Shown here piece by piece: positions 37,085 through 63,454 of a DNA stretch of 64,000 nucleotides. Origin of the DNA: Amanita rubescens (Eukaryota; Basidiomycota; Agaricomycetes; Agaricales; Amanitaceae); contig WION01000235.1 in NCBI GenBank assembly GCA_015039365.1, forward strand, positions 18,717 through 82,716, given 5' to 3'. The position numbers were made by a program, and so were the translations under genes. The notes beneath the pieces were generated by a model that worked only from the letters and a program-made list of their open reading frames with translations, searched no databases and was not told the origin of the DNA. The stretch's first letter is position 1; each line of letters opens with the position of its first letter.

Positions 37085-38170
37085 ATGGCCCTCAAAGGTA
37101 CAACCTCGTATCTGCTCGCATGTCCCATCGTCTAACCTCTTGTCCTAGCTCTTTTCAGTACTTTACTTGCCCTATTCATCTGTCGTGCGGTCGCGCTAGA
37201 CTTCAGCAATTCCCATTGGATTTGGTACAAATATGCTACTACAGTACCAGTCTACGCCGTTGGCGATTTCCGCTACGACCTTAAGCATTCCGGCGGACCA
37301 CACCCTGTCTCCGCAGAAATTATCATTGCCGGGGATAATGACTATACCCTCTGGGTTAATGGCAATGTCATTGGGAAGGGTACCGACTGGACGATAGCTC
37401 AAAAATACTGCGTTGTCCTCAATCCGCTGCATAATGTCTTTGCTGCCCAGGTTGTTAACGCTCCTGGTGCCCCGCCCAACCCTGCTGCATTGCTTGCCGC
37501 TGTCGAGGTCTTTTACTCTGATGGGAGTACCAAAACGATCGTGAGCGACCGTAGCTGGCTCGCACATAGGGGTCCTTCACCTGGATTCCAAAGCCCCATT
37601 TACAATGATCATTCTTGGACCCGCGCTGTTGAGTTGGGTACTGCCAACACTTTGCCCTGGCATACACCCTCCTTACCAGGCCCTCCCCCTCCCCCAACCC
37701 TCGCCAAATCAGAATGGATTTGGACAAACGAGATTAGCGGTCCTGGTGGAAACGCACCTGCCGGGAGCCGCGCGTTCCGCAAGGACATCACGATACCCGG
37801 TATTCTACCGGCCACCGGTGGCACGATTGTCATAAGCACGGATAACCAGTATACGCTTTACATCAATGGTCAACTGATCGGGACTCATGCGGACTGGACG
37901 CACTCTCAGACTTATCCATTCACTCTTACAATCCCTACCCAACACATCGTTGTCGCAGTTGCGGCTACAAATTTTGCAGGACCTGCCGGTGTCATTGCCG
38001 CCCTCCAGCTCAATGCCGGGTGCTCCAATTTCGTCTATGTCACGGACAGTAGCTGGAAGTATAATCTCGCTGTGCCCTCTGGCTTCCAACTTGCCAGTTA
38101 CAATGATGCTAGCTGGCCCCATGCCGTACAAGAGGGCCTCGACGGAGTCTCTCCTTGGGGTACCATTTAG
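37085..38170 (+). CDS. Secreted protein with two galactose-binding-like beta-sandwich domains
   Basis: Spliced model 37085-37097, 37149-38170 (intron 51 bases, after a 13-base first exon), 344 residues. The signal peptide MALKALFSTLLALFICRAVA is assembled across the intron. Two repeated domains follow. Domain 1 has HWIWYK, AGDNDYTLWVNGNVIGKGTD, HNVFAAQVVN and WLAHRGPSPGFQSPIYNDHSW. Domain 2, after a poly-proline linker (PGPPPPPTLAK), has EWIWTNEIS, STDNQYTLYINGQLIGTHAD, HIVVAVAATN and WKYNLAVPSGFQLASYND with ASWPHAV. The pattern WIW / YTLWVNG / DxSW is that of jelly-roll carbohydrate-binding modules seen in secreted fungal lectin-like proteins and appended to glycosidases. No catalytic domain is present, so a lectin or wall-binding role is likely. 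Ligand unknown. Confidence 0.78.
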
Positions 38171-38562
38171 AATGCGTAGTCGGGATTTGGGATGGCGCTT
38201 GTGTACAAGTTGTTTCGGCCTGCAATTTTTGGTTCATTTGTCTCGTGTTGTATGGACGTGCAGTATGATATGGATGTTAGTAACGAGTAATGTCGCTAAC
38301 GAAATTATTATGCGATTCGATCTTTTGAAACTAAATGCCCGAACTATTATAATGAGATGAACCGTTGGTTTGAATATGTATACCGCAGTTAGCTGTGAGC
38401 TGCGTAGCCGGCGGTTGCTTCCTAGCTTTCCACGCTTGTCTGCCCCAACACGGCCCGAACCCCTCCCCACATGTGGACGCCCAATTTTCGGCTCTCGGCT
38501 GCCGGAGCCGATGCGGTCATCGTGCCAAAACGAGCGGCGGAAGCGCTGTTTGGCCTTATTTG
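38171..38562. other. Intergenic region
   Basis: 3' flank of the beta-sandwich gene; no supported gene. Confidence 0.4.
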
Positions 38563-38965
38563 GCCTGGGCGCGCATGCACATGTTCGAAGCCAAGCAAGA
38601 CTTTTCGATGTCGAGCACATGGTTAAAACCACGTTCGTTCTTCGTTATATCCCAAGCTGGCATGACACTTTCGAGGTCCAACCTACTCCATCCTCACTCA
38701 CATCCTTGCCCGCGTATACATCTACCCTTTCTGTCCTGCTCGATCCACAAGGAGGCATTATCGATGATACCTTCGTCACCAAGCGCTCTGTGGAGGCCTT
38801 TTACATCGTCACCAACGCCGGGAGGAGGGAAGAAGACCACGCTTGGATTACTTTGCAACTCAGAATTCACCTGAGAGCCCCGGCGGAAAGAACGGGCCAG
38901 TGGAAATGAAAGTCACGGAAGGATGGGGGTTGATGAAACGTTGATCGCTCTGCAGGGTACGCCAG
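38563..38965 (+). pseudogene. Relic of glycine cleavage T protein (aminomethyltransferase)
   Basis: Plus-strand fragments in the order of GcvT: HVRSQARLFDVEHMVKT (usual RxxxGLFDVxHM), then SSLTSLPAYTSTLSVLLDPQ, GGIIDDTFVTKR, AFYIVTNAGRREEDHAW, and in a shifted frame GGKNGPVEMKVTEGWG and LIALQG. The N-terminal mitochondrial part and the C-terminal half are missing, introns are absent or unrecognisable, and at least two frame changes occur. The T protein transfers the methylene group of glycine to tetrahydrofolate in mitochondria. This piece cannot do so; an intact gene must exist elsewhere. Confidence 0.7.
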
Positions 38966-40552
38966 ATATCGCCAGATTAAAATAAGTGCGCTAATGACAC
39001 GGAGATCTTGCCATCCGTGCGCTTCTCGACTCTGTCCCAGTCACTGATCCCGTTCTAGGCGAGTAATGGTATCCTCTGCCGTGCATCCCTGCAACTTGGA
39101 ATCAAGATCCGTTCCTTTTAGTGGTCGCCGTTCAATGAGATACTAATGGTCGTCGTTGGTGCTGATCTCTCTCTTTCATAAGTATGAGCTTCCGAATGGG
39201 AAAGTTGGAATAATGTTGGTAGATGTCGTCATCTATCGGGAGAGATGACTTGTCGCGCGGACGCGAGCTGGACGACTCGGAGAACCTACTAGTAAGTAGG
39301 GCCGACAACGGAAAGTTGTTATCGGCAGTGCCTGCGAAACTTGAAGCTTTAAGCTTTAAGCTTTAAGCCCCGTGTGCCCCGGGACCCTGTAAAGGCTGGA
39401 GTCCTCATTCGTCGATAAGTAGGAACGTGCCGAAGTGACAGTATGGGATTCGCCCGTTTGCCATTCGCCGTCCCCCTTTGAATCAAACGCAAGGATTCAG
39501 TGTGTGTGTATATGCATCTCTCATGTAGATGCTGATTGGTGCTCTAGATCCGTTCCGAGGCCGGGTGGACATTCAACGATGTCTATTTGTTTTGCGCCGT
39601 ACTGCGGAATATCGATATGATACGCCAAATGAGGATCTCCGTCTGTTTTCTTGTATCATCAAGATCCAGGTGGATGGGCGCCGGGTGTGGATCAAGGATG
39701 TTGGCAGCCTGAATGAAGGATCTAAGGCCTGCGGAAGAGGATCAGTAAAGGTACATACAGAAAGAGATGAACTTCGTAAGTGGTGGACCCATGATCTGTC
39801 CGTCTCTGTCGTTTTCCACCCTTGCGCCGTATAGCCTGAACAGCCCACATGCCCCATCCTTTGCTTGGTAGGACGCCATGTAGTAGACACATTCATCGAG
39901 GATAATGAGAAGGGGTCTTCAGAGCCGAAATCGCGGTGCTAGCGAAGTGGTTTCTCGTTTAGCGCATATTGCCAGGCCGTGGTGCAGATATCTGGTGAAA
40001 GAGGCCTCAGTAGACAAGTCACAACGTTGGCAGTGATCCACCAGTCCTCTAGTACCCTCGTCTTTTTCATATGTTTGTTGGCTTGGTTATAAGATTATAT
40101 ATATATAGGTTGCGATGTGCTGGCGGAGAATGGAAGGGCCCGTCCGTATTGTCAGTGCGTCACTGTAGTTTCGAGAAAGAGCTAGATTGGCCCGAAGACT
40201 GGGTGAGACCTAACGCGCATGGTCCAACTAGCCCCCAGGTAACTCTCCTGGCTGAAACCGCTGAACACTGACTCGCAAGATGAATTCTTTCGGGTCGACC
40301 TTCTCATCGGGTATGAACGGAGAAGCGACGTTCCCAGCAAAACTCACGCTGGACGACTTAACTTTATCATCCGTGTATCGCCGTGTCGTCGTCCCCACCA
40401 TTCGATTTCATTTGTACCCGTGCTACACAGTATACTTGCGCACTCTCAAGTCTTGTGTCCTGGCACGGTCATCTGACACACCGTTCCGCTGCCTTCGGTA
40501 ACTTCAAAACGTATCGTACAGTTTCCTAATTACAAGTCCATGTTGACATCTG
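38966..40552. other. 1.6 kb region without a supported gene
   Basis: Overlapping open frames on both strands at 39529-39896 lack any family signal. A short direct repeat 'aagcttta' (three units) lies at 39344-39367 and a TATATATATA run near 40098. Confidence 0.35.
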
Positions 40553-42470
40553 TCATTCTATCGACCGTATTCCTCCCGGTTTGGTATCACATCTAGGCAG
40601 TAAAGATGACGCACACAACGCCATTACCGCAGTACAAACGAAAACGAAGTAGACCATATATCCGCCGAGATACCCCTTGTTTATTGACCATGAAAAGAGC
40701 GAGTTGGAAATTGCAGGAGCCATCATCACCAATACACCCGCCACCATCTGTTACCCGCAATAAGCTCTGTGTACGGCATTTGACTGAAGAAACCAGGCAA
40801 CACACCTCACAAAAGCCGAGTGCTGCGGCACGACTTCCATACGCTTGGGTAATAAAAACCGAAATTGCGACTACACACACATTTGTGACATAATTCATCA
40901 GCATTGCAAATGTACTTACGCCAACCAAATTGATTCAAAACCGAACAGCACATCTGAGTGGCAAGCGCAAACCACACCAAACCATTATATCCATTTTTCC
41001 TCGCAATCCAGTTCATCAAAGGCCACAGCACGAATAGCGGGACCGATGCGAATAAACCGAGTACATACGTATATCTCGAGCCCCATTTATCATGCACGCG
41101 GGGGAAGATGAACAGCTGGGATATGCCTGTGACTGTTGAAGAAATGGATGACAAGATGCCGATAGCTTGTGGCGAAAGACCAAGTCCTCCATCTCTTATA
41201 GACGTGGAGAGGTACAATACTTCGGTTTCCGAGTAGAATGTCTGTAGAAGACAAATCGACGACAAATTGATGGCAGCAACGATGATTCCGGGAACGAAGA
41301 TGATGCGTAACGATAGTGGGCTTCCGGTGCTTTCAACTCCTTCTCCCATCACGCACTTATCTTTCTGTGTCTTTTTCTTAAATAAGCTGGAAAACAGTGA
41401 CAGTGGTTCCCTCACCATTTCTTTCAGAAAGATGGTTCCAACTAGCCAGCCAGTAAGCAATAGTATGGAGCAAATGGCGCAGGGCAGGAAGTAGGGGTAT
41501 TCTTTAAGAAATTTGCTAGAACCAAATAATTGTGGAAATTGGTCGACAGGTCTTGAGAGAGATCCCCCGATCCTGGACCCAATCTATGGTGGATACTTTC
41601 GAATGTGCACGCTTTACAAAGAAGATAAAACTCACAGTTCCCGCAACGTATACCGAGGTCTCATAGTAGGCTATTGCCTACTTTCGCTAATCAAGAAAAA
41701 GTCATGATCCATAATCAAAAACATACTCGCACAGTATCCGTTGAATCAGTCATCCTAGCCAACATGCTGCATCAACAAGTCAGAAGGGTGAATTGTGCGC
41801 TTCTCCACGGTCATCTAACCTTCTTGTCACTCCATGAGTTCCCCCTATATAGACGTTACACGTTACGTACGGTAGCATTTATGACGGACTTACGGAATGC
41901 GCCCATTAAAGCTTGACTGCACATCGGGTAATCAAGAACGTGGTTTTAATTCAAGTGTCGCACGAACCAAAAGATAAGACCCCCAAACGTTATTGAAAGC
42001 CCAAAGCCGCTGATAAATACCGACAAGCCTATTGTGCAGGCGAGGAAAACAATTTTTCGGCCTATGTGATCGGAAAGCTGAGACAGATGAAACGTTGTGG
42101 CCGTTTCAGAAGCAGCTATCGTGGATATCTGTTGTTAAGTTAGTCTCATTCGGATATTGAAGGAACGCGTGCACGACACGTACCAGCAACCCGACATAAA
42201 GTCCTACATCCTTCTCTCCTTCTGCTATCCCAATACTTCGAATTAACTGAAAGTTACGTTTTGGGACCGCAAATGTCAAAACAGTAAGGAAGACCGTACA
42301 TCCGGAATGAAGGGGCGCGTGACATAAAATGGTATATGTGTCGCAGTTTGCAGCGCGAAGAGTATTGAAAACTGGAACCATGGAAAGGGCGTTTGGTGAA
42401 CCTGCTCACGAGCTCGCTCAGCGTATAAGAGAGGAGTTTCCTCGTCTCTGATGCTTTGATCAGTCGTCAT
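40553..42470 (-). CDS. Major facilitator superfamily transporter (one extra base near the 3' end)
   Basis: Inferred exons 42470-42300, 42246-42184, 42128-41968, 41916-41894, 41844-41820, 41766-41727, 41677-41636, 41583-40806 (with one surplus base at 40920), 40747-40553. The cytosolic N-terminus has RDEETPLLY. Helices 1-2 follow, with QLSDHIGRKIVF between helices 2 and 3 (the MFS signature D-x-x-GRK). QALMGAFRGTHGVTRSMLAR and MTDSTDTVRA, IGGSLSRPVDQFPQLFG, and a central loop lead into helices 7-12. The end is GGYMVYFVFVC, LLPRCD. The order matches fungal ZIFL1-like/MFS drug-type transporters. Three micro-exons of 23-40 bases were placed by family similarity. It is divergent from the ATP-grasp/methyltransferase gene, so it may export that enzyme's product. 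Confidence 0.75.
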
Positions 42471-43186
42471 GGCCAAGGGGAGAGCAGTTAAGATGGGAAG
42501 CACTGTTGAAGATGATAACGCCCGGCGCGTGCCGAGGCATTTGAATTGTGGATGAAATCATGAAACATCGGCCACTGCCCTGTGGCAATCCTATAAAGGG
42601 AACATAAGTACCATAGAGATGGCATTTCACGAGATAGAACCAAGTATAGTCTCCTTCCGCATCAGGCTGACGTGACAAGTAACCATCAAGGAACGGTCAC
42701 AAGGGTTTGGTGTTATTAATACCCAACACATGTCAGGTGGTGTATACTAGTGTATTCAGTGTACGTCGGTTATACCAACATGACTTGACTTTTTGGTGAC
42801 TTTGCGGTGCCGTCTCCGGTAGGCAGCGTAGGTTTCAACGGTTCTACAACTTCTGTTAACAAGGCCAACGACGCGAGTCCTCCGAGTCGTCATATGCTGG
42901 TTGCTTATCTCCGTACTCTTTTGGATTAGATGAGGGGGCAAGGGAGCACGCCTGGCGGGAGTAAGTAATATTAAGAGACTATATGCATTTTCGGCAGGTA
43001 ATTGATGTTGCGCCATCCGTCGCACGTTTTGGGGAGTGTGTACGTACATTCGTGAGTTTATAATAGACATCTGACAAGCTATCTGACATGATCTATGTTA
43101 ATTTAGTATTTTTCCACAGGTCGCAGCATGATAAATAAACCACGATATCCAGATGAACTCAGGCAGTCCCCCACTCATTATCAATC
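42471..43186. promoter_or_regulatory. Divergent promoter region between MFS and ATP-grasp genes
   Basis: 716 bases without a supported gene separate the two start codons. This arrangement is common for co-regulated metabolite genes in fungi. No binding site was recognised with confidence. Confidence 0.45.
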
Positions 43187-44848
43187 ATGAGAATCTGCGT
43201 CTTGCAATCCGCCTACTCCGACCAACATGAACTTGCCGAGCATGATTCCGGCGCAGATCCGTCCAGATTTACAGAACAACATACATTCGAGCACCGATGG
43301 ATTCGCAAAGACAATGCCAAAGAACAGATCGATGCCGCCATGTCCGAAAAATTCGACTTCTACTTCAACTTCATGTGGGGGCAACTCGAGGATGAGGTTG
43401 CAGGCATCGAGGCCATCGAATACTTCGAGAGCTTTGGGTTGCTATCCATCGGCCAGCGCAGCGAGCTCCTGAAGCGATCCAAAAACGATTTCTACCGGAA
43501 TGCCCGAACTCTAGGGGCCCCTCGCGTTCCAGGCACTTCTAATTATCCCTTCTTCGTCAAACCATCCCAGAGCTGCTGCCAGCCAGTTTATCTCCGACAA
43601 ATCACTCTGTCGCAGTCGTGACGAGCTTCTCGAATCCCTCAAAGATCTCAACCAGGCTCTGGAACCTGGCCGCAAGATTGCTGGCCGCTCAGGTCAGCCT
43701 GTGTCCACATCGACTGTGGTGGACGGCATCGCCATCCCCGATGATATCGTTGTCCAGGAATTCGTCCAAGGATGGGACCATTCCGTCGTTGTCATCGAGA
43801 TCGGTGACTGCCCCGTTGCTTTGACTCCCAATCGATATGTCTACCCCAAAGATTTCGTCCCGTATGATGACTTCCTGCGATTCGACATCAAATTTCACGA
43901 CGAAACCAAGTATTAAACTCCTCAATCGGAAGGAAGAGCCGGAGCTTTTTACGAAGCTCCAAGAGATGGCTTTGCAGGCATGGAACGCGAATCAGATGGC
44001 CGGACAAAGTTGGGCCAACGTCGATTTCAGGGTGCAGGCCAATGGCGAGCCCATCGTTCTTGAAGTGAACCCCATGCCGGCCGTCTTCCTCGCCGATGAG
44101 AAGTGGGAGGATACCGCCATCCGTGAATCTTTCCCAGGAGGCCACCGGGCGCTCATCAATGTCTTGATCGCCAGCCATTTAATCCGACAGAAAGTCGAAG
44201 AACACCGCCAGTCCTGCATTGCGGACATATTTACCAAGGTACAGCAGCACATACGACGAGGATCTTGAACGCTTCACGGTATCTTCCATCTATGAGAGAA
44301 TAGTCTCATCATTGGACTTCTCTGGGTCCATTCTTGAGCTGGGCCCTGGAACAGGCGCGCTTGGTCGTCTTCTGGAAAAGAAAATATCTTCCCACGAGAC
44401 CACTCTGACAGGCATCGAGCTATCCAATGGTATGATCGAGAAGTGCCAGGAAACAGGGTTATATAAGGAAGTCTACCATGGGTCAATTCAGACGATATTA
44501 CCATCAGTCGGTCCATTCGACCATATCGTCAGCTTCATGACACTATATTACGTGTCGCCGGAGGATTTCTCGCTGATCATGACGAGGTCGTTCCAGCTAG
44601 CACGGAAGTCCATTGCGGTGACAATTGACGAGATCCCAGATGTGTATAACGAGTGGTTGAGGGAGAGGGACGATTCGAATATGATAGGGCGTAACCATAA
44701 GGCCGAGATGGAGAAGGCATTTTGCAACCCCCCTCCCGCAGGATGGAAACTGTCACAGACGTTCCGTGCGCTCGGGTGGACTTCTCCTCGTGCTAAGTGT
44801 GATATCTATGTGACTGCTTACATATTCGAGAGGATAGAGCACGAGTGA
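43187..44848 (+). CDS. ATP-grasp ligase fused to a SAM methyltransferase (three extra bases)
   Basis: No introns seen. Three coding frames follow on directly once surplus bases near 43577, 43914 and 44239 are removed. Residues 1-330 resemble D-Ala-D-Ala-ligase-type ATP-grasp enzymes: MRICVLQSAY, FDFYFNFMWGQLEDEVAGI (where DDL-type proteins have N-x-x-G...ED), PFFVKPSQSC (ATP-binding lysine), VVQEFVQGWDHSVVVIEIGD, and VDFRVQANGEPIVLEVNPMP (metal-binding D/E/N). Then comes IADIFTKYSSTYDEDLE leading into a class I methyltransferase: ILELGPGTGALGRLLEKK (SAM motif I), GIELSNGMIEK, FDHIVSFMTLYYVSPEDF, ending IFERIEHE. A ligase that forms an amide bond plus a methyl transfer suggests an N- or O-methylated amino-acid or dipeptide product. 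Substrate unknown. Confidence 0.7.
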
Positions 44849-46125
44849 GCTATGACCCAAGGACACTTTGTTACACGCTGTTGTATGTAAAAGAAAGAAG
44901 GCATATTGTTCCTTGATTGTGAAGGTCACTAGTAGGCTCGACAGCAAGGTTCATTGCTGAAGGTAGTTGCGGTGCTGGCAAAACAAAGGTGTAGACCGTG
45001 GAGAACGTTAGTTTGCACGCGCACGTGTTACATGCATGTGAGTCTGACTTCTGCGTGCAGCAGATCCGAGGCCGTAAGTTTGATGTAGATAGCTATCAGA
45101 ATAAAAAAAGCAAGAACGCTTGCTAATAGTAATACTACATGGGCGTTGAATCGTTGAATCGTCCAAACAACCAGACTCCTAATCGGTGTGCTTGACGATG
45201 TTATGTAAGCTATCACACGGCGAAAGGCTCGTCAGTGAGCGTTACGAATCGTGACAACGACATCGTCAAGCGCACACCGAGGGATTGGGCAGGAGTCTGC
45301 CAAACAACGTGCATTCCCCGCCGATATCTGTCGCTCCTACAGAGATAGACCCTATAGTCACGATGAAAAGTATAGTCGAGACGCCGAGCCCATCGAGAGG
45401 GGTCACGCGCGGTAGGGACAGAATCATTTATAAAATCGGACAATGAAGAATAGTTAACTAGTGGCAGGATCGGACAAGGATCTATCAAATTCGGCACGAA
45501 TCCCTTCAGCAACGGCGCAATCTGTTGATATGCATGCCAAAATTGCCGCATCGATAAAGTAAGCATTTTGACCAGCATAGAATAGACCTGACGTTTGGTA
45601 TTATAACAGAGTCGGAGAAGAGAGTAGGTCGAAGCCACAGCTTGATGTTAACGTTCTGTATCCTCATTAATTCCAAGAGTATTGGAGTGCAATAGGATCT
45701 GGCATAGGCTTCTACGGTTTTAGCCTTCAAACGTGCCTATATGCAATGCATAAAGATATTATTACCGTCTGGAACATCCGAGACCTTAATGAGGTATGTG
45801 CAAAAGTACATCTCAGCATTCCTTTGGATTCATCGCGTTTCGATAGTATTTTCTCAGTGATGAATTTTGTCATCGAATGGCTGTCGTTGTTGGCGATCTC
45901 AGTCGTGGGAATCAAGGGCTCGTCAGTGCAATGTAAGTCGACTTGGTACATTGAACAAAGGAACCGCTGATGCTCTATTTAAGGCAAAAAACGGTAGCGA
46001 TGGGATCGCCTAGTCCACTGAGCAAGTTGACGAGCGCTAATTACCCGGATTTGTGAGCATGTACCACTTGTTACCAAGACAGATATCTTGAGCTTTTATA
46101 CAGACCCGAGCAAATTCATTCCCTC
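44849..46125. other. 1.3 kb region, possible membrane-protein remnant on the minus strand
   Basis: Minus-strand frames at 45213-45638 and 45506-45730 (ILLELMRIQNVNIKLWL) and 45028-45216 (one hydrophobic helix, HVVLLLASVLAFFILIAI) look partly coding. I could not join them, and no family is recognised. Confidence 0.3.
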
Positions 46126-49100
46126 ATGGGATACGCAGTGGACCTCACGCTTATCCTACAAGCCGTGTTTCAAGTTTCACTTCACGACCGAGCCGAAGGG
46201 AAAGCAACACAAGACCGCGTATCCGAAATCGTCTATGAGTTTCATTTGTCAGAAAAGAAGAAACTTATTCATGACGCAATTGTCGGCGCCCAGCACCTGG
46301 TTGCAAACGATAGCGTGGTAGAACAAATCAAGTCATTAATAAAGGAAAATGAAGTGCGAAGTTTCTTATTCCGGCGTCAATCCATTGCTAATCGTACAGC
46401 TTTGCTGCGCTATAGATGACGGATAGTGATAGCCAACTTGACGAAATGAGACCTACCATTCCACTGTTACTTTCAATCCTTAGATTCGAGGTTTGTGCTT
46501 TTGGTGCATACCAGGCTATCGCTGACGAGTGCTAGCAAAGTGCAAACGGCCCGGTGGTGAACAAGGCTATTCTTGGCATTCTGCACAAAGTGCTAGATTT
46601 ACCCGACTATGGCACTGTTGTCGACGAAATGGTAGATCCTTTGAACGATGTCGAGACGTTGATCGATTTCATCCTCTACGTTCGTTAACCTTCGATCTAC
46701 TTGTTTGGCGTTATTGCTTACTACCTGTAGGCGCTTCGTAATGACAGCCTTTCAGATTCTGGCATTCCAGATGCCAACCGAAGAGCCGGGAGACTGATGT
46801 TCAAACTAATAAACAAGACAGATGTCACGCTAAAATTCCTATCTATCACCGACGTTGAGATTCACTCGCATCATGGTATGGGAGAGTTTGCACGGGTGTA
46901 CAAAGGCGAATACAGAGGACAACAAGTTGCGCTGAAAATGCTAGACCAAGAGGTTGGCATTACTATTTTTTCGCTTCCCCGCTCCTAGCATTAATGCTCG
47001 AATCATTCTGCAAGATTTCACGCAAGAAGGATTTCTGTCGGCAAGCCCTAGCGTGGCGATCGCTCGTACATAAGTCTATCCTCCCTCTAGTGGGAATCTT
47101 TGGAGAGGCACCACAGCAATTCCTTGTGTCGCCGTTCATGTCGAACGGCACGTTAACTCAATGGAGAAAGAACAAGCCGTCATCAGTTATACCTGATGTA
47201 CAAAGGATGGTAAGGTTTTGGCGCTCATCAGAATATACAAATAGAATTATTTCTATCCTTTAGATGCTGGAGGTAGCCCAGGGCTTACAGTATATTCACT
47301 CAGAAGGAATTGTACACGGCGATTTGTGTGGAGTGCGTGTTTTGATATCGTACTTTATCAATACATCTGATTTATTTGTCGTCTACTAGGAGAACGTCCT
47401 CCTCGACTCTGATTTCCACTGCCGAATTGCTGGTTTTGGAATGGCACGACATTTCGATGCCACCGTTAGTCCATCCGCCCTCCTTTCTTGGCTCTTTTAT
47501 TTTCCCGCCCCCGAGCTGCTTGGTAATTGCGACAAATGTGGCGAGCCCGACTGCAACGGATGTCGCGAGGATCACGAGACGTCAAAGGCAACGACAACGA
47601 AGGCGATAGACGTATGCGCATTCGGCTGCCTTTATTACTTAGTGAGTACCTCAACCCATCTAGCGTGCTTGATGATAACTCGTGTAGATATTTTTCAATA
47701 CTTATCCCTTTCAAGGAAAGGACGAGTATCAAGTTCTTCGACTGGTCGCAAGAGGAGCACGTCCAGATCGATTGAGCGATCCAATAATCGAAGACGATAT
47801 ATGGGATATCATCCAGAGGTCTTGGCTAAGTAAACCTTCTGAGCGTCCAACAATCCAGCAAATAGTGAAGTCATTAGTAAACGCGAAAAGGGTAGGCGAT
47901 GCTCGAGATCTCATCCGGATCCGTTCGGAATCCAGTCCTTCTGAGCATCTGACAAAGACGCAAATTATTCCACCATCAGCAGAAACCTACCCTGGCCCAC
48001 CGCCCGCCGCCACTTCTTCATTACCTGTAATACCCCATTCGTTTTCGACAACCCCCTCGTCGTCACCTGCAAGTGCAACCGCGACATCGCTGCCGGGGAT
48101 CTTCCCTTCACTGTTCGCAAGCCTCAATGAGGTACAGTATGTACTTTTGAGGCATTAATGCACTGCAACTAATAACAGCTAGTCAACGACACGCGGCGAG
48201 TCAACGGTTAACAAGCTTACCCTTGACCTTACATGTAAATTGTTGGATCTACCTGAGTATACCATCGCTGCCTCTGAGGTGAATACTGCAGACGTCGAGT
48301 TATTGATTGATTTTCTCCTCCATGTATGTATGTTTTGTTTTGTTTTCTTCGCAGCTAATTTGTGTAAAATTTACTCCCTTCAGCTACTTCCAAACATCGG
48401 TAGCCTGTCAGATTTAGGCGTCCATGATGCAAATCGGAAAGCTAGGAAGCTGATGTTCAAACTAATATCCATTACAAATGTCATACCAAAGTCTCTATTC
48501 ATTTTCGGCGTCAAGACTGAGACGCATCTCGTCGCGACCATGATTAGTATGGGAGGCTATGGACGTATTTTCAGAGGCGAACATAAAGGGCAACAAGTAG
48601 CACTGAAAGTGGTGGACCAGGGTGTACATGACGTTAGTGCATTGTCAGGTTTTCTTTTGGACGATATTCATTCATTTGATAAGGATTCGCTCACCAAAGA
48701 CTTCTGCCGGGAGGCCATAACGTGGAGATCTCTCTCACACCGTTTCATCCTCCCTCTTCTGGGAATATTTGAAGAGAATTCACAGCTAATCCTCGTATCG
48801 CCATTCATGGAAAATGGGACGTTAACTCGGTGGAGAAGTAAGCAAAAGCGGGACGTAGTTGAGATACGCAGACTGGTTAGACTCCTGTGCTTGTCGGTGT
48901 AGAACTGATTCACTAACATCGTAAAGATGCTAGAGGTAGCCGAAGGCATTCAATATCTTCATTCTGGAGGAATCGTTCACGGCGACTTACACGGAGTGAG
49001 TAAACTTGAGTCTGTACTTTCAAATCAGTTGATCCAATTATTTTCCAGGGGAATATCCTCCTTGATTCCGAATTCCACTGCCAAATCACTGATTTTGGAA

Positions 49101-51072: not shown

Positions 51073-54010
51073 TCACCAATTCCCCTGGCCATACATCTGA
51101 GCATTCCTATGCGTATTCCGCTTCGTCGCCGAATCAAACGAAGTTTCACTAATCTCATCTTCCACATCTCGGTGACGGTAGATACCTCCACCTCCAGTGC
51201 TACCCGAAGGCGAGGGAGGCACAGGGATAACCACAGGAGGCAAAACCGGTGAAATCGTAGGCGGCGCAACCGGTAAAATAGTATTACTAGGGATGACCGG
51301 AATAACCGGAGGCGTCACCGATTCCAAAGGTTGTTGAAGGGTCACGCTTTTTCGTTTTCCCTTCTTTTTGCCTTTTCCTTTACCTGTCGTTGTGGGTCCC
51401 GCTGTCTCCGTCGTGCTCGTGCTTGCTCCTCCTTGAGATCCGATTGAAAAGCCCAATGGTGCTGGATACTCGAAGGGTGCGGGTGCTTCTTCATACACCG
51501 GTGGTGCTGGCGGGGTTGACCCAGGGCGGATGCTGCCCAAATCAACGGTTCTCATTGATGGGGTACCATACATCGTTGGTTGAGGGACCACTCGGGGTAG
51601 TACAGGCAACACGGGCACCACAGGTGTCGAGTCCAAGTGTCCATTGTGGTGTGGAGGGGGGAACGTTGGTGGCGGAGTGGTGGGATGAGATTGTACAGGT
51701 GGAAGGCTTATTGGTCGGCTGTTCGGGCTGAGGTGGCTCGGATCTTCGTTCGATAAATGCTCCCTTGGTTCAAAAATAGGTGTTTCAGGTCGAGACTGAT
51801 GTAAACATGATCAGCAAAAACTCAAAACAAAAACAAGAGGAAGAGACTTACGGGAGGCACAAGGGTGAATTCGATTGATATCGAACTACGGTTGCTACCG
51901 GTTCCGCTCGTGAATGCCGGACTGACAGGGCTGAGGGGACTAAGGAAGTTATGCGGGTTTTGGTGACGATGAACTGGGGTGCTAGTGCCGCCAATGGGAC
52001 TAGGAGGAGCACTCAGATCCGGAGGAGGGTGGACAAACCATTGCGGAGCTGGTATGTGTGGAGGTGGCGCCATTGATGGAGGAGGCTGCGTAGGGTCACG
52101 GTTGTGATGCGTGCCAGGGGGAGGGACGAGACTAGGTCCTCCAGTCCTACTGGGGGGTCTAGCCTGAACATTTTTGTGTATAACGTGTAATGCGTCGTCT
52201 TTGGGTGGTTGCTCTCGCGTTCTTCTGTTGCTTCCGCTGTTTTCCACAACCAACTGCGGTTGATGCACAGGTACAGCAAAAAGAGGCTGGGGAGACCGAG
52301 AAGCGGGAGGAACTGAAGGAGGACGAGGAACTGAATATTGAGGAGTGGCAGGGACCGAAGGAGGACGAGGAACTGAATATTGAGGAGCGGCAGGGACTGA
52401 AGGAGGTCGAGGGACTGGAAGTTGAGGAGCGGCAGGGACTGAAGGAGGTTGAGGAGTGGCAACCGCCGAAGGCGAACGAGGTACAGGAGGGAACGTAACG
52501 ATCCCGAGTTCGCCCACGGAACTAGCGGCCGACTCGGTTGACGCCTCTGAGCTGTCATCTCTGGGTATACCCCCTGGGAACTGTTGTACAGGAGGCACTG
52601 GTGGGGGAGCCGGAACGCGTCGCCGAGGCTGAGGCGCTGATGAAGTAGATGGGAATGCGTTGCTTGGACCCTGACGGGAATGATGTCGCAGTTCGATGGG
52701 CGCTGTTTCCAAGGGGCGAGATGGATGGGCAGGATCGATCTGTTCCGCCGCTCGATCATTTCGGTTCTGATGTTGTGTTGTAGTTGCAGACACAGATGCA
52801 CGACGAGCAGACCCTGATGTGCGATGAGAAGTGACCGAGCCAGACCCTGAGCCACTCGACTGGCTTTCGTCGCTCCTAGCTTGCATAAACACCTCTGGAT
52901 GGACGGGTTGAGACGGTTGTGGTATTTCAGCTGCAGCAGTCGTGTTACAACGCGTCGCAGCGTCATCTCTCGACCTGGTGGATCTACCACTTCTATCGCT
53001 CGGGACTTGCTGAAGGGATTCAGGAGGTACTTGTTCTCGTGAGGTTGTGGGAGCAACGCGTCGGCTAGGAGCAGCGCCCGTAGTCTGATGATCCTGGGCG
53101 GCTGACGCGACGGATGAGCGCCTGGTACTTTGTCGGGGTAGGATCTCCGTATCCACGGGGCTTCTTGTAGTATGTTGGTCCAAAGAGCTGCGCCGTGTGT
53201 GTGATGGACGATGACGATGGCTGGTGCTATCGTTGGGGCCTTGCGTCAACGCACGTCTCAAGGTCGCCGTTGCCACCTTGGCTTCTTGAAGGCTGGAAGT
53301 GTCTTGGATCCTGCCTGCCGCTAGAGCTTGCACCTGCGAGAGCCGGACTACAAGTCTGCCCTGTTCCAAGCCCTCTTCAAATCCAATGCGTCTCCCTTGC
53401 TCGCGGGCCAGCTGGACGGCGGACTTTTCCTTCAAATCGCGGGCCTTGTCCCGAGCGCGCTGCAAAGCACGCTCCATTTCTTCCTTGTCATCTTCGAGAA
53501 TTTTGACGACATCAATACCCCTCCGTCTACACGGGGAAAGCAAAGTTAGCTTTGGATACCCCCCAAAAAGAATGAAACGTACATTTCACGCTGAGCGTTA
53601 TCGAGCTTGAGCTTATACTGCTCCACATCCTGCCTCGCCTTCAACGCCTCCTGTTGTGTATCCAAAATGGTCTGGGTCATCTTTTCTCGTACGTGTTTTG
53701 CCTCTTCCATGGCTTGCCGTTCCTTCTCTGCCTGTTCCTTGAGTAAGAGAGCGTACTTCCTCAGGCGGGCTTCCGTCTTCTCGATTTTATACTCTCCGAG
53801 GAGGACGAGGTTGATCATGTCGTCCGTGGACATTCTTTTGAGTTCTTTTGCACGTTCTGTGCGATAGGTGCTGCTTGCTTTACTGCTACGAGTGAACATG
53901 GTTCCGCTGGCCTTTGTGAGACGTGTTGGAGGGAGAGGCGGTGATGACGATGAGGTTTCGCTTGAATCTGGGTAGAGCGCGGGTTTGAATTGAGAGGCAT
54001 CGTAGGGCAT
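51073..54010 (-). CDS. Large coiled-coil and proline/serine-rich protein of unknown function
   Basis: Spliced model 54010-53583, 53526-51852, 51795-51073 (two 56-base introns), 941 residues. Residues 1-60 are disordered. About 60-215 form a charged coiled coil (STDDMINLVLLGEYKIEKTE, LRKYALLLKEQAEKERQ, then ILEDDKEEMERALQRARDKA). The next 300 residues are Ser/Arg/Gln-rich. A proline-rich array has repeated units of the type PRPPSVPAAPQ, and more proline-rich sequence with a lysine run (KGKGKKKGKRK) follows. The folded-looking end is IYRHRDVEDEISETSFDS. No catalytic domain. The layout suggests a scaffold or cytoskeletal/membrane-trafficking adaptor, but that is inference. The start was chosen because upstream codons overlap other features and lack coding character. 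Confidence 0.75.
52295..52470 (-). repeat. Imperfect tandem repeats coding for PRPPSVPAAPQ-type units
   Basis: Four copies of a roughly 42-45 base unit. The encoded units differ at one or two residues (AAPQLPV, AAPQYSV, ATPQYSV). Such near-identical units tend to vary in number between strains. Confidence 0.75.
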
Positions 54011-57037: not shown

Positions 57038-59470
57038 TCACGAAGACCCTGAAGGAGATGGATGCAAACGGACAACTCGCCATATTTCTTCCGTCGTATG
57101 TCGAAGGCCATTGTAGACCGCCTCCTCGCTCATCCCCAACAGAGGTTGAACCTGGGCAACCTTTTTGCTATGTTCCCTGACCATATCAAGAATACGCGTC
57201 TGCAGCTCTTCGTGCGTCTTCAGTCTCCCGTCGTTTTTCTAATAACATATCAATTCGGTTATGTTGACCAGAAATGCTCTCATTACCTGTTTCGCGTCGA
57301 CCCTAATAAAAGCTCGAATCAAACCCGTAGGCAACTCGCCAGACGAAGCAATCAAGGTTTGTCTTAGTATCACCTTGACTTGTTCCCTGAGTTCTTGCTT
57401 CAGTTCGTCGCCCTCAAACACATTCGACTTTATCGCTTGACGAAGCAAATCGGTAAGATCCTCCGGAATGTTCTCAAGTACCTCCGAGGGTATATTACGA
57501 ACCAACTCCACCGGCAATCGCTCCAAAAGGGATGTGGGAAGTCGCTCGAGTGTCGGCCGTGGCAACTTCGACAGCACTTTTGCGGGCAGTTTTACGAGAA
57601 GCTCCTGAGGAAGCCTTTCAAAACAGTGATTTGACATTCTGCCAATGTACTCTGGTGGAATGCGTTCAACTGCAGACGCAGGAAGCGATTTGATCGAAGA
57701 CGTTGGTACTGCATCCATTACAATTATCGGTAAATGTTTGAGGACTACTATGGGAGAGATGCGGATCAAGAATCCAAGAATGCTATGTTCATCCCATCTC
57801 TTTGTGATATGACGGAACAGGGGTGGGGATTTGACGTGAGGTGCCCCCTGATCTGACTGTTGTTCAGGAAGCGTAGGGTTTACTGGGGAGGTTATTCCTT
57901 CTTCAATTTCGTCACGCATGGCGATATACTCCTGGGACAATTGTGCTAAGCGTTCCTCAGGAAGGCGACGTAACAACTCGAGAGCATGTTTTCGATCCGG
58001 ATTATCGTTTGGCTTATCCAACAGATTCTGCATCCGCAGCAAAGCCACTTCAAGTAACGTCGGCGGAACGAGTTCAAGGTCGTCCGGGAGTGTGAGTACC
58101 ATAGCATCTCTCATCCGAGAGAATATGTGAATAGGAAGATTCTGCAGGAACTCTTCGGGAGCGCCTCGCAAAAGATCGTTCGGCAGTTTAGCGAGAAGAT
58201 CGTCCGGCAGTTTCTCTAGCACTTTGATCGGGACACGCGCCAAGAGTTCAGGCGGTAAACGGGCCAGAGCGGAGGGTGGAATACGGTTAATCAGTCGCTC
58301 AGGTAAGATAACGCTGACACCTTGGATCATATTGCCAGGCAAGTGCGCCTCTAACTGGGGCTTGACCGTCTCGTTCAACCTACAGCTGGCCGTCGTCTCG
58401 TACTTGTTCGAAAACTGGGGTTCGGAGAAACTTTGCTGGAGATTCCCATGCCATAGCGTCATCTCTGTCGCCTCGATAATCCATTCGGTTACAGCTTTCG
58501 GGATCTCGTTGCCCGCCAGAACAATGTTGCATCTCTCCACTTCATCGCGGATCACCTTGTTCACAATGTCCTTGAGGCGATCCCAGTCCTTCCGCTTCTC
58601 TATTCGAGTTCCGGCATCCTCTTTGACAACATCCCAAATGAGATTTTCGAGCACATGGATCATTGCCGCCTTGAGCAATGTTCCCAACTTGTTCCAATCT
58701 CCGTCAAAAACGTGGGTCAGTATCATAGACTCGGTGACTCTATCCCAACGCAAGTAATTCGTCGGAGATGACCGGAGAAGACAATGGCGAGTGACGAGCG
58801 CGATGATGGAACGGGCGACAAAGTAGCAGTTGTACTGTTGTAAAGTGTAGTTCTTGGTGCGGGGGTCTAAATGAATGGCGACGGCGACGGCAATGACATT
58901 GTAGAGGTCTGGCTTGTCTGAATCGAATTCGAGAGTGATCTCTGCATCCGTCTCGGAACGAATAACCTCGAGATCAGCGTTGCTGACAGGTGTCAGGCTA
59001 TCCTCAGCCTCGCACCCTTCTTTCGAAATCGGCTCGAAGTTGGGGCCTTTGACTGGTCTACGGTCGATGCGGTGAACCCACCCGTTGTCCAGATATATCA
59101 CGATATATTCGTGCTTGAAATGGTCCCTCTCCTTCCGTAGCTCGAGCTTGGTGATGGTGGTATATGTCTGCATCCTGTACCAGTCAAAGATCCTTCCGTC
59201 ATCCCAATCGCGACAAGTTATCCTGACGGGAGCCATGTCCCGCATCGAGGACAATTTGTGGGCAAGGGCTTGATGGACATCATGAGATGCGTTGGCAAGG
59301 TACTCGTTGGCATGTTGGGATGCGTTTGCAAGATATGTACCCTGACTGGCTATAGACGGGTTGGCTATGGACGGCGTGGCCATGGATGGCCGAAACGAAG
59401 GTGGTAACCCTCCATGAAAGAGTTTGTCCTGCTCTTTGGTGTCAGTCTTCCCTCTTGAAAAGAAATGCAT
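57038..59470 (-). CDS. LRAT/NlpC-like N-terminus with LP-repeat solenoid, copy A
   Basis: Spliced model 59470-57287, 57238-57038 (intron 48 bases), 794 residues. Residues 1-75 are low-complexity with a local repeat (LANASQHANEY/LANASHDVHQA). Residues 80-230 hold HEYIVIYLDNGWVHRIDRRP and, after a YNVIAVAVAIHLDP strand region, YTLQQYNCYFVARSII. The His (H120 or H133) and Asn-Cys (C215) arrangement recalls LRAT/NlpC-P60-type thiol enzymes. Two arrays of an eight-residue unit LPxxLLxx follow (about 389-450, LPPELLARVPIKVLEKLPDD, and 575-675, ERLPTSLLERLPVELVRNIP). The end is helical: KQELREQVKVILRQTLIASS, then EELQTRILDMVREH. A 42-base 5'-UTR intron is likely just upstream of the ATG. Family unnamed; enzyme activity unproven. 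Confidence 0.75.
57455..57742 (-). repeat. LP octapeptide repeat array 2 (copy A)
   Basis: About twelve consecutive 24-base units coding for the pattern [LIV]P-x-x-[LVAS]-[LIV]-x-x (for example LPTSLLER, LPVELVRN, IPSEVLEN). The first array, about eight units, lies at 58121-58306. The same arrays exist in copy B. Confidence 0.85.
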
Positions 59471-60050
59471 CGTCGCTTCTGTGTCCTGTTAGTGGAAAGA
59501 GTTGTAGGCGCAGGTGGGCTAACTTACAGTGAGAAGGCAGCGTTTGGAATGGATGCAGGAAATGGATGAACGAGATTTATAATTGCCTCGTGTTCAACAT
59601 GTTTGAGAAGCGCGTTATGTAGCCTTTGTTCGCATCACCAGCTAACTGAATCTTAATATCATTGGGTTATTCGGTTCCCCGAAGGTGATTTCATCAAAAT
59701 CAATGAGGCTTTTGGGACGTCACGGGCTGTAAGCTGGGCATGCAGTACAGGACCAGCAGGGATCGTGTGAGGGAAAAAGCAATTCTATTTCAAGTTGACG
59801 GCAGTGGATTTCGTAACTGCCTTGTCCCCACATATAGATAGCGGCGGTCTTTCGAAACTGTTGAACAGGCCTTCTCTACCGGAGGCAGCAAATTAAATGT
59901 CAAGAGCATCGTGCTGGGGTTCACTGGACGTGACAAGAGCGTGACTCAGAGTGACGCCGTCCAGAAATAGCATATCCGCTATTCCTCTCAATTTGGCCAA
60001 CCAGATACAGCACGTACAACACGTTATAATACTCCTCTGGACCCTTGAAT
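59471..60050. other. Intergenic region between the LP-repeat paralogues
   Basis: Upstream DNA of copy A. About 59700-59960 resembles 62760-63060 upstream of copy B (shared 'agggaaaaagcaatt', 'caagttgacggcagtg', 'tagcggcggtctttc'). The duplicated unit therefore spans gene plus promoter, about 3 kb. Confidence 0.6.
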
Positions 60051-62479
60051 TTATGAAGACCGTGAAGGAGATGGATGTAAACGTACGACCCGCCATATTT
60101 CTTCCGTCGTATGTCGAAGACCGTTGTAAACCGTCTCCTCGCTCATCCCCAACAGAGGTTGAACCTGGGCAACCTTTTTGCTATGTTCCCTGACCATATC
60201 AAGAATATGCGTCTGCAACTCTTCGTGCTTATCGAGTTTCCCGTCATTTTTCTAACAACATGCATCAATTCGGTTATGCTGACCAGAAATGCCCTCATTA
60301 CCTGTTTCGTGTCGATCTTAATAAAAGCTCGAATCAAACCCGTAGGCAACTCGCCAGACGAAGCAATCAAGGTCCGTCTTAGTATCACCTTGACTTGTTC
60401 CCTAAGTTCTTGCTTCAGCTCGTCGCCCTCAAACACATTCGACTTTATCGCTTGACGAAGCAAATCGGTAAGATCCTCCGGAATGTTCTCAAGCACGTCC
60501 GACGGTATATTGCGAACCAACTCCACCGGCAATCGCTCCAAAAGGGATGTGGGAAGTCGCTCGAGTGTCGGCCGTGGCAACTTCGACAGAAGCGTTTCAG
60601 GTAACCTCTCTAAGAGTTCTCGAGGAAGCCTCTCAAAACAGTGATCGGTCATTTTAGCCATGTACTCCGCTGGAATGCGCTCGAGAGCGGATTTGGGGAT
60701 GGAGCGAATAGAAGATAATGGTAGTAAATCCATTACAAATGGTGGTACTCTTTTGAGGACTGGCAACGGAGCGATACGAATCAAGAACCCAAGAAAGCTA
60801 CGATTATCCCATTTCTTCTTGATGCGACGGAATAAGGTATGACGTTTGACATCAGGCATCGCCTGATGTTGTACGGGGATCGTGGGTTCCGCTGATGAGG
60901 TCTCTTCTTCCTTAATTTCCTCGCACATGGCAATATGCTCTGGAGACAATTTGACTGAGTAATCCTCAGGTAGGCGGCGCAATAACTGGAGAGCATGTTT
61001 TCGATCCGGATTATCGTCTGGTTTATCCAACAGATTCTGCATCCGCAGGAAAGCCACTTCAAGTAACGTCGGCGGAACGAGTCCAAGGTCGTCCGGGAGT
61101 GTGAGTACCATAGCATCTCTCATCCGAGAGAATATGTGAATAGGAAGGTTCTGCAGAAACTCTTTGGGAGCGCCTCGCAAAAGATCGTTCGGCAGTTTAG
61201 CGAGAAGATCGTCCGGCAGTTTCTCTAGCACTTTGATCGGGACACGCGCCAAGAGTTCAGGCGGTAAACGGGCCAGAGCGGAGGATGGAATGCGGTTAAT
61301 CAGTCGCTCAGGTAAGATAACGCTGACACCTTGGATCATATTGCCAGGCAAGTGCGCCTCTAACTGGGGCTTGACCGTTTCGTTCAAGCTACAGCTGGCC
61401 GTCGTCTCGTACTTGTTCGAAAACTGGGGTTCGGAGAAACTTTGCTGGAGATTCCCATACCATAGCGTCACCTGTGTCGCCTCGATAATCCATTCGGTTA
61501 CTGCTTTCGGGATCTCGTCACCCGCCAGAACAATGTCGCATCTCTCCACTTCATCGCGGATCACCTTGTTCACAATGTCCTTGAGGCGATCCCAGTCCTT
61601 CCGCTTCTCTATTCGAGTTCCCGCGTCCTCTTTAACAATATCCCAAATGAGATGTCCGAGCACAGGGATCATCGCCGCCTTTAGCAACGTTTCCAACTTG
61701 TTCCAATTTCCGTCAAAAACGTGGGTCAATATCGTAGACTCGGTGACTCTATCCCAACGTAAGTCATTCGTCGGAGATGACTGGAGAAGACAATGGCGAG
61801 TGACGAGCGTGATAATGGAACGGGCGACAAAGTAGCAGTTGTATTGTTGTAGAGTGTAGTTCTTGGTGCGGGGGTCTAAACGAATGGCGACGGCGACGGC
61901 AATAACATTGTAGAGGTCTGGCTTGTTTGAACCGAATTCGAGAGTGATCTCTGCATCCGTCTCGGAACGAATAACCTCGAGATCAGCGTTGCTGACAGGC
62001 GTCAGGCTATCTTCAGCCTCGCACCCTTCTTTTGAGATAGGCTCGAAGTTGGGGCCTTTGATTGGTCTACGGTCGATGCGGTGAACCCACCCGTTGTCCA
62101 GATATATCACGATATATTCGTGCTTGAAGTGGTCCCTCTCCTTCCGCAGCTCGAGCTTGGTGATGGCGGTATGCGTCTGCCTCCCGTACCAGTCAAAGAT
62201 CACTCCATCATCCCAATCGCGACAAATTATCCTGACGGGAGCCATGTCCCGCATCGAGGACAATTTGTGGGCAAGGGCTTGATGGACATCATGAGATGCG
62301 TTGGCAAGGTACTCGTTGGCATGTTGGGATGCGTTTGCAAGATATGTACCCTGACTGGCGATGGACGGGTTGGCTATGGACGGCGTGATCATGGATGGCC
62401 GAAACGAAGGTGGTAACCCTCCATGAAAGAGTTTCTCCTGCTCTGTGGTGTTGGCCTTCCCTCTGGAAAAGAAACGCAT
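60051..62479 (-). CDS. LRAT/NlpC-like N-terminus with LP-repeat solenoid, copy B
   Basis: Spliced model 62479-60302, 60251-60051 (intron 50 bases), 792 residues, roughly 90 percent identical to copy A with the same intron, the same HEYIVIYLDNGWVHRIDRRP and YNCYFVARSII segments and the same two LP arrays. Differences cluster in the linker between the arrays (about residues 505-590), which has diverged strongly, and at several polar positions. The conserved His and Asn-Cys and the repeat spacing are kept in both, which argues that both copies are under constraint. The start at 62479 matches copy A (M[HR]FFSRGK). An in-frame ATG further upstream lies in a probable 5'-UTR intron. Confidence 0.75.
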
Positions 62480-63454
62480 TGTCGCTTCTGTATTCGGTGT
62501 TAGTGGAATGAGTTGTGGGCGCAGGTGGGCTAACTTACAGTGAGAAGGCAACTTTTGGAATGGTGCAGGTCACGCGGCAAATGGAAGGATGGTCTTTATA
62601 ATTGTTAATAAGGGTCCTTGTTCGCATCCCTGGCGAACCGGATCCTACCATTTGCGTCGGATGGCTAATCGGTTCCCTGAAGGTGATCTTGACGGCATAT
62701 ACGGGCGCTAGAATTCAGAAGCTCAATATATATGTGAGAATGGCACTTCATAGAAATCAGTTGTTTCTGGAAGGTCTTTGCAACATCACGGGCCGAGAGC
62801 TGGGCATATATGTGCGTAGTACCGGACCGACACGGATAGTCAGGGAAAAAGCAATTCCATTCCAAGTTGACGGCAGTGAGTAATGGGCACCAATTGAAGA
62901 TTCCGTAACCCCACATGTATAGCGGCGGTCTTTCAAAACTGGAAGCAGCACTTCTGCATGGAAGTCAACCGGGATACTGCCAGCAGTGTCAAGAACATGC
63001 CGGGTAGTTGCAAGGCCGCGGTGAGGGAGCCCGATCACTGGGCGTCACAGCACCGTGACTCAGTGATGGCCCACAGATGATCTCCCTGACAAGGGTTCTT
63101 CTCGGGACGGAGAAATTGAGGACTGATATATTAGTGACTCATCTGCATCCGCAGCCGTTTGTCGCAGGCTGGAAAAGATGATAAGATTACACTAAAATGA
63201 TTACATTTTGTTATACAGGTTCAATGTAAACACAAGTTCAGTAATGCAACGCGTAGGAGGTTTTAACGTGCTGAAGTTCAGTCCGACCAGATCATCAATG
63301 ACGAGTGGTCTTCAGGCACACGGCAAGGGAGCACAGGACCAGATGACCCCTTCACGACACATCTTCACGCAGATTGTTTATCTCGAGAGCAGAGCTCCAA
63401 ATTGACGACAGAATCTGAGTCAACTACGCAGAGCGTGTTTGTAACTTTGTCGGT
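62480..63454. other. Upstream region of copy B and unassigned DNA
   Basis: Left part is the duplicated promoter of copy B. The rest has no supported gene. Confidence 0.4.

Follow-up and report, generated by a model that had tools for sequence, protein, structure and literature searches.

CLN5 is a lysosomal protein that, going by the title of a cited paper, is reportedly an S-depalmitoylase. The PLAAT proteins have phospholipase and acyltransferase activities and share with LRAT a His-His-Cys triad with an NCEHFV motif, according to PMC7140883, while a permuted order, in which the His-bearing strand comes before the Cys helix, is described for the permuted NlpC/P60 superfamily in PMC3142127. 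Here, we describe two neighbouring genes, A and B, at positions 57038-62479 of a 64,000-nucleotide stretch of Amanita rubescens DNA (the window), whose products we take, with a probability of roughly 60%, to represent a new Amanita-type family: a permuted NlpC/P60-type thiol enzyme with a fold closest to those of CLN5 and PLAAT/LRAT, joined to an octad alpha-solenoid that would act as a binding scaffold, with acyl transfer or hydrolysis as the most likely chemistry.

Both genes are intact, consist of two exons and lie on the minus strand. Their ATG-started open reading frames (ORFs), of 743 and 778 codons in the ORF listing of the window, each read through into an intron, and cutting out GT...TTAG introns of 48 and 50 nt gives products of 794 aa for gene A and 792 aa for gene B; with the introns removed, the coordinates originally given for both genes prove exact. 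Each protein runs from a disordered N-terminus through an alpha/beta domain of about 165 residues and a helical linker to a pair of LPxxLLxx octad arrays, and ends in a C-terminal cap joined on by splicing. The proposal that the gene was duplicated with its promoter is partly borne out: by blastn the likeness continues for some 90 bp beyond the start codon and resumes farther upstream in patches of 63 and 35 bp. The features are listed below, where labels such as C13 denote contigs of the 75.7-Mb assembly of the same genome, in which the window occupies 18717-82716 of C152.

57287..59470, minus strand: gene A exon 1, start codon at 59470; a second copy on C13 has 96% protein identity
57239..57286, minus strand: gene A intron, 48 nt, GT...TTAG; the KQ/KN protein junction is identical to that of the annotated A. 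rubescens protein P0005
57038..57238, minus strand: gene A exon 2, C-terminal cap (KNDGRLKTHEELQTRILDM...EEIWRVVRLHPSPSGSS, stop), resembling the P0005 cap
60302..62479, minus strand: gene B exon 1, start codon at 62479
60252..60301, minus strand: gene B intron, 50 nt
60051..60251, minus strand: gene B exon 2, C-terminal cap, from the cap search of the same genome
58751..59239, minus strand: gene A predicted permuted NlpC/P60-like domain, residues 78-240
61760..62248, minus strand: gene B predicted permuted NlpC/P60-like domain, residues 78-240; shares 92% identity with its gene A counterpart
59111..59113, minus strand: codon for His120 of gene A, the residue proposed as catalytic base; 64 of 65 alignment rows have His here and one has a gap
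58826..58828, minus strand: codon for Cys215 of gene A, the residue proposed as nucleophile, at a helix start; Cys in 65 of 65 rows, model helix 141-160
62120..62122, minus strand: gene B His120 codon, from the ORF and the 65-row alignment
61835..61837, minus strand: gene B Cys215 codon, from the ORF and the 65-row alignment
58115..58306, minus strand: gene A octad array 1, residues 389-452, 8 octads; core matches, 7 of the 8 octads predicted to form a short helix, block predicted local distance difference test score (pLDDT) 64-92
57470..57757, minus strand: gene A octad array 2, residues 572-667, 12 octads; 12 predicted short helices 8 residues apart, block pLDDT going from 89 to 55
61124..61315, minus strand: gene B octad array 1, from octad core matches
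60485..60772, minus strand: gene B octad array 2, from octad core matches
60560..60997, minus strand: gene B mosaic tract, ends approximate, from identity per 50 columns to the C385 paralog versus gene A
59471..59860, no strand: gene A upstream flank, partly common to 62480-62941 upstream of gene B; blastn pieces to 59559, 59744-59806 and 59826-59860

The case for an enzyme begins with residues that hardly vary. Across a 65-row alignment of the domain, with rows down to 28% identity, Asn214 and Cys215 are invariant and His120, within a KHEY motif, is His in 64 rows, the remaining row being without that stretch; the third polar residue of the putative active site is not conserved. The original prediction correctly noted NCYF and an upstream histidine in both copies and chose the invariant cysteine, but its histidine, that of 'WVHR' (H133), is His in just 9 of the 65 rows and was the wrong one. 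In a confident predicted model of the domain, and in that model's numbering, His47 adjoins strand 48-54 and Cys142 opens helix 141-160, which begins at Asn-Cys, so that the cysteine stands at a helix start C-terminal to the His-bearing strand. CLN5, PLAAT4 and picornaviral 2A head the structural neighbours listed for this model, and in the structural alignment His and Cys come to lie near the PLAAT catalytic positions; in this alignment the lack of Cys-His proximity that had been named as fatal to the idea did not appear. Taken together, the structural alignment, the order of strand and helix and the invariant His120, Asn214 and Cys215 support a circularly permuted NlpC/P60-type fold as probable, and to this extent the LRAT/NlpC grouping first proposed is largely borne out, though it finds no sequence-profile match.

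Several comparisons at the sequence level count against this assignment. Profiles for LRAT, PPPDE and CLN5 give nothing above cut-off over the domain, and besides a sub-threshold PPPDE match Pfam returns, over or near it, weak matches to unrelated families (Barstar, E 0.0022; DUF5064, E 0.039). A profile-profile comparison with a PPPDE/LRAT-like family of 169-aa proteins from the same genome places the Asn-Cys helices in register and is not significant (P 0.09; reversing one side gives 0.16 and 0.27, and reversing both gives 0.06). No Pfam cut-off is passed over the domain by any member scanned (58 in one scan, further members separately), and a sequence search of the PDB with the domain profile yields a single match at E 3.5. 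Because the profiles miss the domain, the weak matches are unspecific and the profile-profile comparison is not significant, we do not file these proteins as members of LRAT, PPPDE or CLN5; rather, they would work like, and probably belong to, the permuted NlpC/P60 superfamily, which takes in CLN5, LRAT, YiiX and PPPDE.

The second element is the repeat. Its core ([LIVMF]P..hydrophobic-hydrophobic) has 15 strict matches in each window protein, compared with means of 2.0 and 2.2 and a maximum of 7 over 1000 shuffles, which bears out the claim of two long arrays per protein, the first of some 8 octads and the second of some 12. The regularity is greatest in a relative from A. rubescens, P0015, in which 60 consecutive octads follow one another over residues 370-849 with no indel, with Pro at position 2 in 57 of them and a hydrophobic residue at position 1 in all 60. 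Self-identity of this array is 0.373 at lag 8, 0.453 at lag 16 and 0.629 at lag 32, against a mean of 0.081 at off-octad lags. The value at lag 16 is not above that of arrays with shuffled octad order (mean 0.449); at lag 32 it exceeds every one of 1000 such shuffles (at most 0.511), and the 32-residue superperiod is therefore real. The P0015 octads also alternate, Glu or Asp occupying position 7 in 28 of 30 even and none of 30 odd octads, and position 4 being acidic in 27 of 30 odd octads and Ser or Thr in 23 of 30 even ones. A Leu-Pro step followed two positions on by an acidic or hydroxyl residue is a pattern favoured at helix starts, and AlphaFold2 predicts one short helix per octad (12 of 12 in array 2, 7 of 8 in array 1) with a block pLDDT of 55-92 across the two arrays of gene A; the repeats are thus predicted to be ordered, at moderate confidence, and not disordered, the other outcome named in advance as contrary to the prediction.

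Arrays change by whole octads, since that of P0017 differs from that of P0015 by 8 additional residues at one site and 16 fewer at another. Among the five giant copies in the A. rubescens assembly no array-length polymorphism is seen: four are 1251 aa long, and the fifth, on C132, is without 63 residues at the C-terminal end of the frame, outside the array. A literature search, with most subscription journals outside its reach, found among the papers listed no description of an LPxxLLxx solenoid or of this protein family; those listed on octapeptide repeats and solenoids concerned mainly prions and in one case ice nucleation, those on expansions in Amanita dealt with other matters, those on LRAT, PPPDE or NlpC in basidiomycetes were general, and Amanita combined with LRAT gave nothing. 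A bolder proposal is that the array constitutes a new alpha-solenoid class, with one minimal helix per 8 residues, octads alternating in pairs of 16 residues and duplication in units of 32, used by Amanita as the exchangeable recognition arm of acyl-handling enzymes of CLN5/LRAT fold in nonself or symbiosis signalling; taken as a whole, we regard this as speculative and rather doubtful.

How the two elements might work together can be set out by analogy. We propose acyl chemistry because CLN5 is a reported S-depalmitoylase and the PLAAT proteins are phospholipases and acyltransferases: Cys215 would act as a nucleophile on an acyl carbonyl, activated by His120 as base, and the domain would move or hydrolyse an acyl group on a lipid or an acylated protein. 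Each LPxxLLxx unit would form a short helix with Leu at the turn, Pro in the first helix turn, an acidic or hydroxyl side chain where the helix begins and the Leu-Leu pair directed into the core, with the arrays stacking as an alpha-solenoid. We infer that this solenoid, together with the cap, may bind a partner protein acting as donor or acceptor of the acyl group, holding the enzyme on its target. If so, thiol enzymes of the CLN5/PLAAT/LRAT kind, with their acyl and lipid chemistry, would reach a large mushroom gene family with a scaffold of its own. A natural octapeptide helical repeat of up to 60 gap-free units would help in classifying solenoids and could serve as a simple template for design, and enzyme and scaffold can be tested apart by way of the His-Cys pair and of the short and the array-free members.

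Searching the A. rubescens assembly with protein A gives at least 51 loci by our grouping of rows, with alleles counted apart; the search scores the best candidates only, and locus counts are hence lower bounds. Twenty of the 51 are long and octad-bearing, two are of intermediate length and 29 are others, namely 28 short loci and C67, a divergent 499-aa family protein that itself matches two further places (C285 and C497:26092). Two copies, C597 and C146, are broken by stops. The C-terminal cap matches 22 places in the genome, all of which we read as family genes on comparing their coordinates with the family loci. Protein searches returned 20, 51 and 11 matching proteins, and every member with an organism name comes from A. 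rubescens (among them P0015, P0028, P0039, P0040, P0075 and P0005) or A. phalloides; two of these searches scored only about 8000 candidates, and a wider taxonomic spread is possible. The combination of enzyme domain and octad scaffold has so far been found only in Amanita and in environmental sequences.

Individual members have features of their own. In the metagenomic protein P0074 a divergent domain copy runs straight into a reverse transcriptase (RVT_1, E 2.9e-16), probably an element inserted in or beside the gene. The annotated protein P0028, a short-type member on C179, ends in a hydrophobic, tail-anchor-like stretch, a hint from its sequence that some family members may reside on membranes. 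The disordered N-terminus of several long members keeps a motif of the form LPPSFRPS, LPSAFRPS or PLALRPS, which is a possible docking motif.

The window genes and their paralogs are mostly under purifying selection. The ratio of nonsynonymous to synonymous divergence (dN/dS) is 0.28 and 0.13 for A and B against their own C13 copies, 0.36 for A against B, 0.38 for A against the C385 paralog, 0.18 for the giant pair tested and 0.11-0.19 against three farther paralogs, for which dS is saturated or nearly so. Higher values come from C385/C760 (0.70, with 12 synonymous and 28 nonsynonymous differences) and from the mid-length pair (0.61, with 3 differences). The arrays of A and B show no sign of diversifying selection by dN/dS, their values being 0.15 for A against its C13 copy and 0.34 for A against B, with B and its C13 copy identical there. 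As dS between A and B (0.21) exceeds that between the window copies and the matching C13 pair (0.02 and 0.06), which we take for the other haplotype, the duplication is older than the split from C13, and the description of the genes as recently duplicated holds only loosely.

Gene B is in addition a mosaic. Over about 440 bp (60560-60997), covering the linker between the arrays and much of array 2, it matches the C385 paralog at 82-98% identity per 50 columns and gene A at 62-80%, whereas outside this tract exon 1 of A and B agrees at 85-100%. In line with this, dS between A and B is 0.90 at residues 501-600, 0.27-0.32 downstream and 0.07-0.14 upstream. The C13 pair displays an equal drop in identity, so the paralog exchange predates the split between window and C13. 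In a domain tree of the 65 rows the short members form one side of a branch with 97/100 support and the octad-bearing rows lie near the base; the octad label needs two changes and the four architecture labels jointly need three, the minimum, which is compatible with a single origin of the arrays followed by loss.

The main enzymatic rival keeps the same fold and changes the chemistry, making the proteins isopeptidases (deubiquitinases or deSUMOylases) like PPPDE/DeSI, with the solenoid selecting a substrate protein. PMC10318531 describes the PPPDE group as permuted papain-like enzymes with ubiquitin and SUMO as their targets, a protein-binding scaffold fits a protein substrate, and a sub-threshold PPPDE match falls on the Asn-Cys helix of a domain that draws other weak matches too; yet the top structural neighbours listed are not PPPDE, an absence from the list that excludes nothing, and none of the places found by the PPPDE profile in the A. 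rubescens assembly is a family locus. We consider this rival unlikely. Similarly improbable is a pseudoenzyme or scaffold protein in which the fold is kept and Cys and His are structural. The unconserved third polar residue would suit it, as would the precedent of an inactive PLAAT relative, FAM84B, without C113 (PMC7140883), but an invariant Asn-Cys and a histidine kept in every covering row, down to 28% identity, would be unusual had catalysis been lost. A different fold altogether, such as a CYTH/triphosphate-tunnel barrel, would reduce the LRAT likeness to a local motif and, set beside the confident domain model, seems the least plausible of these.

A role in nonself recognition or innate immunity, with the solenoid as sensor, the thiol domain as effector and exchange between paralogs diversifying the sensor, is compatible with the enzyme reading and is a tentative possibility. 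It is suggested by the copy number of at least 51 matching loci in 75.7 Mb, the copies broken by stops and the paralog exchange over the linker and array 2, and the whole-octad differences between P0015 and P0017 and the dN/dS of 0.70 for C385/C760 point the same way. Against a fast-evolving sensor stand the low dN/dS of the A and B arrays (0.15 and 0.34), a mark of purifying selection, and the single length of the giant array in five copies, and Pfam finds no nucleotide-binding domain of the NLR (nucleotide-binding, leucine-rich repeat) type. The acyl-handling thiol enzyme with a solenoid scaffold remains our preferred reading.

Elsewhere in the window, GEN1/Yen1-type Holliday junction resolvase ORFs with XPG_I and GEN1_C matches lie at 9946-12616 on the minus strand, and the ORF at 51822-53543 is of low complexity, probably disordered, with PRPPSVPAAPQ-like repeats, and overlaps a 42-bp tandem repeat at 52298-52455. 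ORFs across 37490-48902 match the N-terminal domain of an alpha-L-rhamnosidase (37490), a major facilitator superfamily transporter (40807, below cut-off), a methyltransferase (44219) and a protein kinase (48240). The genome also holds the separate family of ORFs of about 169 aa (L053, L055, L056, L058, L060 and L062; C354, C19, C51, C201 and C210, with several places on each of the last four contigs). These have PPPDE/LRAT-like motifs (HWAVLVG ... NNCQDFAN), a best PPPDE profile match of E about 1e-4, below cut-off, and ends such as CTVF or CTVV that resemble prenylation (CaaX) signals.

Among known repeats, MgtE_N and leucine-rich variant (LRV) repeats differ from the octads in repeat length; MgtE_N matches 4 of 58 members with a best E of 0.057, and the LRV structure 1lrv ranks 45th by Foldseek at E 1.1, neither being significant. 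ARM/HEAT repeats are helix-turn-helix units of about 50 residues (PMC2628672), in contrast to the 8-residue unit and 32-residue superperiod in Amanita, and the matches to the ARM-type superhelix of mesothelin, stereocilin and otoancorin are all weak. Other candidates were rejected: the Cornifin, DUF1699 and Barstar matches in Pfam are below curated cut-offs, 644 viral structures match at E <= 10 and none at 0.001, and matches to leucine-rich repeat designs (E 2e-10 with the alignment profile), attributed to L/P spacing, are discounted because the predicted model is helical.

For the enzyme domain, the permuted order is common to the Amanita proteins and PPPDE/DeSI (Peptidase_C97, PF05903), whose profile reaches E 0.036 on the Asn-Cys helix of P0075 and scores no more than 14.4 bits where the cut-off is 29.2, and which on the A. 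rubescens genome lists 23 places with no octad-family locus among them. The 50 structural matches listed contain no LRAT, PPPDE or other NlpC protein beyond PLAAT4, H-REV107 and picornaviral 2A, an absence that excludes nothing. The LRAT (PF04970) and CLN5 (PF15014) profiles are both absent from the 19 Pfam families listed for 58 members; on the A. rubescens genome the former finds a single locus, on C354, with a sequence outside the octad family, and the latter finds nothing there or in control genomes. CLN5 (PDB 6r99) resembles the modelled Amanita domain in fold, at 6% identity, and unlike the Amanita proteins is without a solenoid. Of the LRAT-type triad, the first His is present in 64 of 65 rows and the Cys in all 65, as against 9 for the second His (the H35 equivalent). 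Where PLAAT/LRAT has NCEHFV the Amanita domain has NCYF, and unlike PLAAT/LRAT the Amanita proteins carry a long helical and solenoid extension.

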